Made by a program: the position numbers and the translations under genes
Assembly: GCF_011694815.1 (NCBI RefSeq)
Contig: NZ_CP050177.1
Coordinates: 682,001 to 746,000, forward strand
Source: Streptomyces liangshanensis
GTDB taxonomy: Bacteria; Actinomycetota; Actinomycetes; Streptomycetales; Streptomycetaceae
DNA: 64,000 nucleotides
Reading direction: 5' to 3'
Shown: piece after piece, positions 17,290 to 51,384 of the stretch
Layout of the letters: each line of letters opens with the position of its first letter
Numbering within the stretch: the first letter of the stretch is position 1
The notes under the pieces: model-generated
Database searches by the model: none
What the model saw: only the letters and a program-made list of their open reading frames with translations
What the model was told of the DNA's origin: nothing

Positions 17290-17945
17290 GTCCGGCCGGG
17301 TGCTCGGGGGGGCCTGGGGCTGGCCGGTGCCTGCAGCCGGTGCCCGGAACTGGGCCGGTGCCCGGGGCCGGGATCGAGGCGGTGCCTGGAGCTGGGCCGG
17401 TGCCCGGGACGGCCCCCCCGGGGAGTGGGACCGGGCGGCACCCGGGGCCAGGTGCTGGGCCGGTGCCTCTGAGGCCGATGCCCGGGCCGGGCTGGTGCCT
17501 GGGGCTGAGCCGGTGCCCGAGGCCGGGATCGGGGCGGTGCCTGCGGGTGGGGCCGGTGCCCGGGGCGGCCCCCGGCGGCGGGACCGGGGCGGCGCCCAGG
17601 AGCCGGGCAGGCGCCTGGGACGGGGCCTAGGCCGAGCCGGTGCCAAGGGCAGGCCGGTGCCTAGGATCGGTGCGTGGGACCGGGCTGGGGCTGTGACCCG
17701 CGCCTGGGACCCGGCCGGTACTGAGACCGGTACCTGGGGACCCGGCCGGTGCTGAAACCCGTGCCTGGGGACCCGGCCGGCCCTGAGACCCGTGCCCGGG
17801 ACCGGGCCGGTACTGGGACCGGTGCCTGGGACCGGGCCGGTGCCGGGGCGGGTGCCCGGGACCCAGCCGGGGCTGAGACCCGTGCCTGGGACCGGGGCGG
17901 TGTTGAGACCGGCGCCTTGGAACCGGCCGGTGGTGGCGTCGGCGC
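17290..17945. repeat. Degenerate GC minisatellite between convergent genes
   Basis: About 650 bp built from variants of GGGACCGGGCCGGTGCC and CCCGTGCCTGGGACC, clearest at 17690-17930 where the spacing is about 30 bp. It separates the anti-sigma gene from the convergent Fpg/Nei gene. Open frames exist on both strands because the repeat lacks stops, but none has a convincing start, so I treat it as non-coding repeat. Confidence 0.75.
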
Positions 17946-17957
17946 TCGGGGGTCTCC

Positions 17958-18990: not shown

Positions 18991-19695
18991 GTGCCCGTAC
19001 GTGATCGCCGAGCGAGCGTCTCGCCGGCCCTGGTGCTCGAGAGCACCGCCACCCGGCCCCGCGCGGCCGTCCTGCTGATGCACGGGGGACGCTCGGAGGG
19101 CGAGGAGCCGCCGTCGCGGCTGAACCTGCCGGGGGCCAGGATGTGGCCCTTCACCCGGGCGGTGCTGCGGGCGACGGCGGGGCTCGACGTGGTCGTGGGC
19201 CGGGTGCGCTACCGCCACCGGGGCTGGAACGGCTCGCGCGCGGACGCGGCGCGGGACGCGTGCCGGGCCCTGGACGAGATGGAACAGCTGATCGGTCTGG
19301 TGCCCGTGGTGCTCGTGGGGCACTCGATGGGGGGTCGCGCGGCGCTGTCCGTGGCCGGGCACGACCTGGTCACCGGGGTGGTGGGGCTGGCGCCGTGGTG
19401 CCCGGTGGACGAGCCGGTGGCGCACCTCGGGGGCCGGGGGGTGGTGTTGCTGCACGGCGACCGCGACCGGGTGACGGACCCGCGCGGCAGTGTGGCGCTC
19501 GCGGCCCGGGCCCGCGAGGCGGGAGCGCGGGCGTGCGCGGTGCTGCTGGCGGGCGGCGACCACGCGATGCTCCGCAGGGCGACGGCATGGCACACCCTGG
19601 CGACCGAGTCGGTCACGGGACTCCTAGGCGTGGGTCCCCTTCCGGACGCGGTGGGCCGGTCACTCCTGGACGGCGGAGCACCGTCGACGGTGTGA
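18991..19695 (+). CDS. Alpha/beta hydrolase
   Basis: 234 residues with the alpha/beta-hydrolase core: HGG oxyanion region (31-33), nucleophile elbow GHSMGG (Ser112), an Asp in HGDRDRVTDP and a late His in GGDHAML. GTG start with GGAAGGAAGG 7-9 bases upstream. No signal peptide or membrane segment, so cytoplasmic. The substrate cannot be told from the sequence. Confidence 0.82.
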   Translation: MPVRDRRASVSPALVLESTATRPRAAVLLMHGGRSEGEEPPSRLNLPGARMWPFTRAVLRATAGLDVVVGRVRYRHRGWNGSRADAARDACRALDEMEQLIGLVPVVLVGHSMGGRAALSVAGHDLVTGVVGLAPWCPVDEPVAHLGGRGVVLLHGDRDRVTDPRGSVALAARAREAGARACAVLLAGGDHAMLRRATAWHTLATESVTGLLGVGPLPDAVGRSLLDGGAPSTV

Positions 19696-19967
19696 GGGGG
19701 GCGGCCCTGGGGCGCGTAACCGGACCCGGTCCGACCAGGACACACCCGAGCGGTACGGGTCCGTGTGCGCCCAACACCCCGACACCGGGACCCCGCCCAC
19801 ACGGTGACGCCCGAGCCGGGCGACGCAACACGACGTACCCCACCGGCCCGGCCCACCGCACCACGTGACAGCCCGCCCCGCGCGGCACGGCCGCACCCCG
19901 ACTGTCGGGAGCCCTCCCGCACGGTGATGGGCGACGTGGCGTACCCCGACCGCCGGAAACCCGCCCC

Positions 19968-20121
19968 GTCCGTGAAGGCGGTCGCCGCCGGGCACGTCAT
20001 CTCGGCCGGCTGGGCGGGGTCGTACGGCTACGAGGTCGTCATCCGGCACGCGGACCCACAAGGCGGGAGCCTGGGCGAGCGGTTACCACACGGGAGTCGA
20101 CTTCCCCGTCCCCACCGGCAC
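19968..20121 (+). pseudogene. Circularly permuted 154-bp fragment of an M23 peptidase gene
   Basis: This stretch matches, with two mismatches in 154 bases, the reverse complement of 42662-42815, inside the M23 domain of the Rpf-LysM-M23 gene, but the two halves are swapped. Bases 19968-20055 encode the later part (SVKAVAAGH...VVIRHAD) and 20056-20121 encode the preceding part ([15 protein letters not shown]...PTGT, in another frame). In the intact gene these halves are contiguous in the opposite order. The remaining bases of 19696-20242 hold no supported gene; CGGTGACG motifs recur at 20124-20200. Confidence 0.85.
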
Positions 20122-20242
20122 CCGCGGTGACGGTCCGTCCCACACGACGCGGCGCGACGCGGCCCCGCGCGCGGTGACGGTCAGTCCCGGGCGGCGGTGA
20201 CGTTGCCCTAGGCCTCCGTCGGCCTACCCCGGACGAACGTCC

Positions 20243-21100
20243 TCAGAGGCCGTACACGCGGCGGGCCGTGGTGGTGAAGACCTCCGTTCGTTCGCTCTCG
20301 CTCAGGCCGTCGGTCACGGTGCGGGCCGCGTCCAGGACCTCGGTGTACGAGGCCGCCAGGCGGGACACCGGCCAGTCGGAGCCGAACATGAGGCGGGACG
20401 GGCCGAAGGCGCCGATGACGATGTCGGCGTAGGGGCGCAGCCCGTTGGGGGTCCAGGAGTCCCAGGCCGCCTCGGTCACCATGCCCGACAGCTTGCAGAC
20501 CGTGTTGGGCCGGGCCGCCAGCGTCTCGACGTGGTCCGCCCAGGGCTGGATGGCGCCGGAGGCGATGGGCGGCTTGCCGAGGTGGTCGAGGACGAAGGTG
20601 AGGCCGGGCAACAGTTCGGCCGCCTTGGCGGCGGCGGGCAGCTGGGAGACCTGCACCACCAGGTCGTACACGAGCCCGGCCTCGGCGACGGCGGCCAGTC
20701 CGCGCCGGACGTCGGGCCGCAGCAGCCACTCGGGGTCCGGTTCGCCCTGGACCTGGTGGCGGATGCCGACGAGCCGGTCGCCGCCGGGCAGCTCGCGCAG
20801 GGCGGCGAGGGTGTCGGCGACGTCGGGCGCGGTGAGGTCGGTCCAGCCGACCACCCCGGCGACGAGGTCGCTGCCGTGGGCGAGGGCGAGGAACTCCGGG
20901 GTCTCCTCGGCGACCGTGATCGTCTGCACGACGACGGTGGCGCTCACCCCGGCGGCCCGTGCTTCCGGCTCCAGGTCGGCGAGGGTGAAGTCGCGGCGCA
21001 GGGGCGCCAGGTCGGGTCCGGTGATCCAGTCCTGGTCGCGTACCGACAGGTCCCAGAAGTGGTGGTGGGCGTCGACGACGTTCGCGGGCGGGGTCATCAT
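20243..21100 (-). CDS. Amidohydrolase of the L-fuconolactonase-like family (COG3618)
   Basis: 285 residues, Amidohydro_2 fold. It opens with the metal motif DAHHHFWD (His12-14) and has GIRHQVQGE, VLDHLGKPP and a late FGSDWPVSR with the catalytic Asp. The family includes L-fuconolactonase and related sugar or aromatic lactonases. Here it is the last gene of an operon with an aldo/keto reductase of the fucose dehydrogenase type, so the pair would turn an aldose into its lactone and then the acid. The ATG at 21100 overlaps the stop of the hexapeptide-repeat gene by four bases. Confidence 0.85.
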   Translation of the reverse strand: MMTPPANVVDAHHHFWDLSVRDQDWITGPDLAPLRRDFTLADLEPEARAAGVSATVVVQTITVAEETPEFLALAHGSDLVAGVVGWTDLTAPDVADTLAALRELPGGDRLVGIRHQVQGEPDPEWLLRPDVRRGLAAVAEAGLVYDLVVQVSQLPAAAKAAELLPGLTFVLDHLGKPPIASGAIQPWADHVETLAARPNTVCKLSGMVTEAAWDSWTPNGLRPYADIVIGAFGPSRLMFGSDWPVSRLAASYTEVLDAARTVTDGLSESERTEVFTTTARRVYGL

Positions 21101-21870
21101 GCGTCAGGGCTCCCAGACGACGGGCGGGCCGGCGCCGGCGCCGGCCGCGGGGTGATCGTGCACGGTGTCGAGCGGCCGCGCCGGGCGGGCAACAGGCGTG
21201 CCGAGCGGCGCCAGCCGGCGGCCGTACGTGCGGACGGCCCCGTCCGCCGGGCGCGGCCGGGGCGCACGGGGCCGCCGGCACGTACGGGGCCTGCGGCGCG
21301 CACGGGACCGTCCGCACGTACGGGGCCGTCCGCACGTACGGGGGTGTTGGCACGTACGGGGGTGTTGGCACGTACGGGGGTGTTGGCACGTACGGGACCG
21401 TCTGCCAGCACAAAGCCCTCGGCGCGCACGGAGCCGTCCTCACGTACGGGGCCGTCGGCGCGCACAGGACCGCCGGCCAGCACCGGCACCTCGGCGCGCA
21501 CAAGGCGCTCGGCCCGCACGGAGCCGTCCGCACGTACGTGGCCCTCGGCGCGCACGGGGCCGTCGGCCGGCACCGGGCCGCTGGCGTGCACCGGGCCATC
21601 GGCGCGTACAGGGCCGCCGGCACGTCCGGGGCCATCGGCCAGCACCGGGCCCTCGGCCCGCACGGAGCCGTCGGCCAGCACCGGGCCCTCGGCACGCACC
21701 GGGCCGTCGGCGCGTACAGGGCCACCGGAGCGCACGGAGCCGTCCGCACGTACGGGGCCCTCGGCACGTACGGGGCCGCCGGCACGCACGGAGCCGTCCG
21801 CACGTACGGAGCCGTCCGCACGTACGAGGCACTCGGCGCGTACCGACGTGCGCGGCCGCGTCGGGCTCAT
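21097..21870 (-). CDS. Hexapeptide-repeat protein (33 units of about VRADGP)
   Basis: 257 residues. After eight residues come 33 uninterrupted hexapeptides of consensus [PS]-V-R-A-[DE]-G (9-206), then a basic, Pro-rich tail. The ATG at 21870 overlaps the TGA of the sugar dehydrogenase gene by four bases, and its TGA overlaps the ATG of the lactonase-like gene by four bases, so it sits in frame in a tightly coupled operon. There is no signal peptide, membrane segment or cysteine beyond the edges. The unit does not fit the classical left-handed beta-helix hexapeptide. Some units have diverged (HVRADG, LVRAEV, three PVRANT), as in a protein repeat that has drifted. Function unknown; a translated satellite without function is possible. 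Confidence 0.6.
   Translation of the reverse strand: MSPTRPRTSVRAECLVRADGSVRADGSVRAGGPVRAEGPVRADGSVRSGGPVRADGPVRAEGPVLADGSVRAEGPVLADGPGRAGGPVRADGPVHASGPVPADGPVRAEGHVRADGSVRAERLVRAEVPVLAGGPVRADGPVREDGSVRAEGFVLADGPVRANTPVRANTPVRANTPVRADGPVRADGPVRAAGPVRAGGPVRPGRARRTGPSARTAAGWRRSARLLPARRGRSTPCTITPRPAPAPARPSSGSPDA
21253..21846. repeat. 33-copy 18-bp tandem repeat
   Basis: Units of GTACGTGCGGACGGCCCC (minus strand) repeat 33 times in register. Both strands stay open across it. Three consecutive units near 21340-21400 are nearly identical (ANT variant), a sign of recent expansion. Confidence 0.92.
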
Positions 21871-41410: not shown

Positions 41411-45270
<3,860 letters not shown>

Positions 45271-51331: not shown

Positions 51332-51384
51332 TGTCCTCGATCGCCGGACGGGAGCACATCGAGCCCGTCCGGCGATCGAGGACA
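51332..51384. terminator. Dispersed inverted-repeat terminator, copy 2
   Basis: Perfect 21-bp arms (51332-51352 and 51364-51384) with an 11-base loop, between the convergent glucosidase and PfkB genes. The arms share sequence with the element at 45135-45270. Confidence 0.85.

Follow-up and report, generated by a model that had tools for sequence, protein, structure and literature searches.

The closest described systems to the locus reported here are the NHEJ scars of Streptomyces ambofaciens and a class of human segmental duplications. The accessible part of the S. ambofaciens account gives five insertions in total, from 30 bp to 18.8 kb, with short inserts of 42 and 83 bp taken from near the break and one of 30 bp from a terminal repeat (PMC5869714). 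In the same part of that account, microhomology of 1-6 nt was present in half of the scars, and mutagenic repair yielded one clone without KuA and none without LigC/LigD (PMC5869714). For human segmental duplications, the accessible text reads a change of block order from A-B/C-D to B-A/D-C as the mark of circles, with joints that carry 1-2 nt of microhomology and/or gains or losses of 1-27 bp (PMC7450558).

A 154-bp scrap of an M23 peptidase gene in Streptomyces liangshanensis resembles the S. ambofaciens scars in its genus, in that the short inserts described there are of tens of bp and lie at break sites, two of the three coming from nearby DNA, and in that many of those scars have little or no microhomology; it differs in that the described scars followed induced breaks, whereas the present scrap is natural (PMC5869714). 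The scrap is 154 bp long and lies ~22.5 kb from its source. The scrap is also permuted, a feature that the accessible part of that account does not mention (PMC5869714). With the human circle duplications, as far as the accessible text describes them, it shares a swapped block order and little or no homology at the closing and insertion joints, but those duplications are large and eukaryotic and the scrap is 154 bp and bacterial (PMC7450558). In the searches made of titles and abstract openings in an open-licence library, no bacterial permuted scrap was found. The locus offers a clean natural bacterial insertion in permuted order with all of its joints readable. Careless DNA repair most likely left this scar; that a copied fragment was inserted illegitimately, whichever the route, we hold at a probability of roughly 0.85.

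Sequence and origin of the scrap

The window, the whole 64,000-nt stretch of DNA that was analysed, covers positions 682001-746000 of a 7,716,784-bp single-contig genome that is 99.99% complete (G000:C1); coordinates are those of the window unless contig positions are indicated. Bases 19968-20121 are the reverse complement of 42662-42815 with the two parts swapped, lying ~22.5 kb from the source and inverted relative to it. Part A (19968..20055, + strand) equals the reverse complement of 42749-42662 and part B (20056..20121, + strand) that of 42815-42750, each with one mismatch. Set in the order B+A, the scrap departs from the reverse complement of 42662-42815 at 2 of 154 positions, namely 42776 (C in the gene, A in the copy) and 42718 (G in the gene, A in the copy); both the swapped, inverted 154-bp copy and the count of two differing bases given in the preliminary description are thereby confirmed. 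By blastn of 19701-20400 against the window, 19961-20055 is identical to 42756-42662 at 92 of 95 positions (E 1e-40) and 20043-20121 to 42828-42750 at 75 of 79 (E 6e-31).

The source block (42662..42815, - strand), located by blastn and base-by-base comparison, lies within the M23 domain of a 451-aa gene (42458..43813, - strand) with matches to PF06737 transglycosylase-like (Rpf-type in the name given to it earlier), PF01476 LysM and PF01551 peptidase M23. The identity of the source is beyond doubt because the next-best match to the scrap in the 7.72 Mb genome is only 80% over 84 bp (40 of 294 candidates scored). Accordingly, a better-matching third M23 paralogue, which had been named as the finding that would overturn this origin, was not found among the candidates scored, and the scrap is, as proposed, a relic of this one M23 gene.

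The direction of copying was assessed from 30 loci in other genomes that match the block, with the own-genome loci (L004, L005) and a duplicate from genome G019 (L009) left out. The gene base G at 42718 is kept in 29 of the 30 loci, the other having C, and the gene base C at 42776 is kept in 22, with T in four, A in three and G in one. Since the copy carries A at both sites and most loci keep the gene base, the gene most likely preserves the earlier state and the scrap was copied from it. One of the two differences falls at a third codon position (GGC) and the other at a first, changing GTC to ATC (V to I). Judged by these bases, the differences appear compatible with ordinary decay, and the ongoing gene conversion suggested earlier is unsupported; the word recent applies to the scrap only as a statement of 1.3% divergence.

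The M23 reading runs in frame 0 in part A and in frame 1 in part B, and the parts are joined out of frame. The earlier statement that no frame spans both parts therefore holds for the M23 frame but not otherwise, as two mechanically called ORFs, 19765-20130 (+) and 19660-20061 (-), extend across the joint. None of 45 candidates proved to be a relative of ORF 19765-20130 at E <= 0.001, and an RNA family search of the region returned two hits at E <= 1, neither of which comes near the gathering score of its family. The scrap shows no sign of function and is regarded as a non-coding scar.

Joints and target spacer

The permutation joint (20055..20056) is blunt and shares no identity with either source continuation. 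Exact extension beyond the scrap ends found one further identical base left of part A (19967) and 0 bases right of A, left of B and right of B, and microhomology across the joints amounts to 0-1 nt. Part A begins and part B ends at the same source base, 42750, so that the full block is represented a single time, without a gap and with no more than one base in common. Because base 42750 can be assigned to either outer end, part A may start at 19967; the part boundaries first described otherwise stand.

No recombination site is seen, because neither the homology between the target and the point at which a circle would have opened (two measures, equalled by 29% and 76% of controls) nor that between the block edges (reached by 15% of controls) is above chance. 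Site-specific or homeologous recombination, considered on the strength of similarity seen by eye at the opening, the target and the block edges, was rejected on these controls. The scrap also lacks the features of a mobile element (IS, MITE or integrase att site), having at most one shared end base and opening/target homology at chance level; none of the listed inverted repeats pairs both scrap ends.

The scrap lies in a 547-bp spacer (19696..20242) between convergent genes, an alpha/beta hydrolase on the left (18991..19695, + strand; PF12146, PF00561, PF12697) and an amidohydrolase on the right (20243..21100, - strand; PF04909). The spacer is repeat-like, with degenerate repeats around CGGTGACG, and one degenerate repeat unit (19781..19850, + strand) aligns across the flanks of the scrap when these are joined without it, at 38 of 51 aligned bases. 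The joined flanks score 27 against this unit, as compared with 19 and 18 for the single flanks. Of at most 5000 random joins, with those drawn close to the unit passed over, 23 reach this score, as do 31 of 4866 random 70-mers; the gain over the single flanks is equalled by 21 of 4866. The alignment may lend modest backing to a clean insertion; the support is modest because the unit was chosen among three examined, one of which was void through flank overlap. Candidate further gene scraps in the spacer flanks, with best own-genome E values of 0.0018 and 0.0055, were taken as chance.

Occurrence in other genomes

A 37-base junction pattern, searched with up to 3 mismatches, occurred in none of 391 other genomes of the genus (1 of 392, the own genome only), a search that diverged copies would escape. 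Matches of a junction 20-mer in three contigs labelled Sphingomonas or Sphingomonadaceae were taken as chance. In the search for a permuted relative, phages gave no match. The plasmid search for the block returned 6 records: in one of these (H1, almost unannotated), examined as a permuted relative, the pieces, which equal those of genome G019, stand in ordinary gene order, and in another (H2) the block aligned only in part.

Among 93 loci, other-genome matches were found to the first neighbour gene in 24, to the second in 25 and to both in one (L075, genome G249). In this sole locus with both neighbours, 71 bp separate the anchors versus 590 bp here, and the flanking spacer is absent there too. 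In the 25 of 391 other genomes that match 19000-19965 at E <= 1e-60, a threshold that would omit weaker spacer-only matches, all matches end at or before 19696, the gene end. Apart from its M23-derived stretch, the spacer is not the centre of any of the matches listed.

Route of insertion

The order of the two parts lies beyond the reach of a simple duplication, as the preliminary description argued, and the circular intermediate suggested there fits it well. A 154-bp copy of the M23 gene would have been closed as a small circle by end joining of 42662 to 42815; a single cut at base 42750 would then have linearised the circle, and its insertion at a break in the spacer ~22.5 kb away would have produced the permuted, inverted, non-coding scar. 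A once-opened circle of 154 bp is the simplest account because part A begins at the source base at which part B ends, and a whole block present once, in permuted order and with its outer ends at one source base, is the pattern that a circle would leave. A rough estimate, taking 2-3 favourable end positions among some 150-300, gives a pair of independent fragments a ~1-2% chance of abutting in this manner, a post hoc figure for one event. The cattle colour-sidedness translocation reportedly shows a similar permuted order, read as insertion via circular intermediates; unlike the scrap, it is very large, eukaryotic and associated with a phenotype.

The joining itself has the character of NHEJ filler, with an insert copied from the same genome, joints of 0-1 nt homology, and a host that encodes Ku and has ATP-dependent ligase domains at three places in its genome. 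We infer a circular, double-stranded DNA intermediate and joining by NHEJ. A retrocopy of a circular RNA would call for a reverse transcriptase in the genome, and the own genome yielded no hit to RVT_1 (PF00078), the one family searched, with 3 of 14 controls positive. At 154 bp, a duplex spans roughly one persistence length, which makes it hard to close into a circle.

We compared the genome with itself over 2.0 Mb (0-1.2, 3.6-4.0 and 7.3-7.7 Mb; 26% of the genome), with both partners inside the sample, at >=85% identity, >=1.5 kb apart and E <= 1e-8. The comparison gave 26 rows, and the M23 scrap supplied the only two within 500-900 kb. One other re-ordered composite of a single gene was found in the sample, at contig positions 7412782-7413032 (L200:12782-13032), near the other contig end; it was recovered again by whole-genome search. 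It consists of 835907-836037 (inverted, 94%) and 835089-835215 (direct, 97%), head to head with a 2-nt overlap, both from the PF00144 beta-lactamase-family gene at 834752-835993, in which the pieces are ~690 bp apart; the first piece extends 44 bases beyond the gene end. The two parts of this composite are mutually inverted, and therefore no circle made it; multi-piece scraps of one gene would thus appear to arise in this genome without a circle. For this reason we hold the 154-bp circle only tentatively for the M23 scrap, at slightly less than even odds. The wider proposition that Streptomyces makes ~150-bp chromosomal circles that are reinserted by Ku/ligase, permuted scraps being a fossil record of bacterial microDNA, is conceivable and rather doubtful. 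If permuted scraps recur across Streptomyces, they would provide a test of small DNA circles as intermediates in bacterial genome change; the scrap alone is one scar, and the argument for a circle rests on that one event.

The alternative that survives best, which we consider unlikely, is that two adjacent fragments (42749-42662 and 42815-42750) were freed by one break at 42750 in a copy of the chromosome and ligated in swapped order at the target break by NHEJ. The composite at 7412782-7413032, as two pieces of one gene head to head, speaks for such a capture, as do the end-joining genes of this genome. Both fragments must share orientation and join in swapped order, an objection that is weak given that the cuts and joins are about as many as for the circle. 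Less likely again, repair synthesis at the target may have taken the M23 gene as its new template, moved back 153 bases a single time and rejoined the target at its starting point, in a MMBIR/FoSTeS-like process. In favour are a source ~22.5 kb off, an inverted copy, the occurrence of CCGGCACGC as a 9-base direct repeat near both block edges, and the second scrap, whose parts are mutually inverted. However, the repeat stops 4 bases before both breakpoints, 1382 of 9095 control pairs at a spacing of 154 bp score at least as high, microhomology never exceeds 1 nt, and an exit precisely at the entry base needs luck.

A tandem duplication of the block within the gene, followed by chance transfer of one unit length, was the second origin offered in the preliminary description and is very improbable: it yields the swapped order but only if the exact unit was trimmed on both sides by luck, the gene now has one copy of the block (blastn), and 26 of the 30 other-genome loci traverse the block and both of its edges in a single alignment with no second match, the other four giving partial matches. 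A library or assembly chimaera deserves just as little credence, as a ligated library circle would give the same order but an artefact made of the same DNA should be identical to it, and the scrap carries two substitutions, both to A, in a genome assembled as one contig at 99.99% completeness.

Other repeats in the genome

Among the other rows of the self-comparison there appear to be palindromic or repeat families, genes that may be paralogues, a repeat at a tRNA end and an inverted duplication in decay. Contig positions 486635-486975 and 507164-508340 (L149:6635-6975, L112:7164-8342) hold luciferase-like monooxygenase gene ends and an upstream piece that are 85-98% identical. The first of these regions was considered as a patchwork of the luciferase-like gene ~21-21.6 kb away and rejected as such; it is read as an inverted duplication that has decayed and suffered internal deletions because its adjoining bases match 4419922-4420373 at 84-89%. 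A shorter inverted pair of 65 bp, 89% identical, is formed by 916352-916414 and 922348-922284.

Within the window, a dispersed palindromic repeat family is present at 45164-45270 and 51357-51384. Further members of this family lie at contig positions 997.7, 999.6-1000.0 and 1087.4-1087.7 kb, and sequences related to it match near 1130.9, 3848.1 and 7558.0 kb. The window also contains a spacer, at 21260-21830, in which short imperfect repeats (GTCCGCACGTACGGGGCC-like) form an array that gives RTGPSA repeats in one frame, and an imperfect direct repeat array at 17294-17950, with 68% identity over a 575-column alignment at a shift of ~150 bp. Elsewhere, a MITE-like palindromic element (77%) of ~180 bp is found in two copies, L126:19476-19654 and L152:4093-4270, which are 96% identical and 245 kb apart. 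A 93-bp direct repeat, 89% identical, is found at L178:5980-6072 and L178:13619-13711, 7.6 kb apart; as a tRNA-Gly (CCC) gene (L178:5950-6023) extends with its 3' end into the first copy, the pair may represent the ends of an integrated element.
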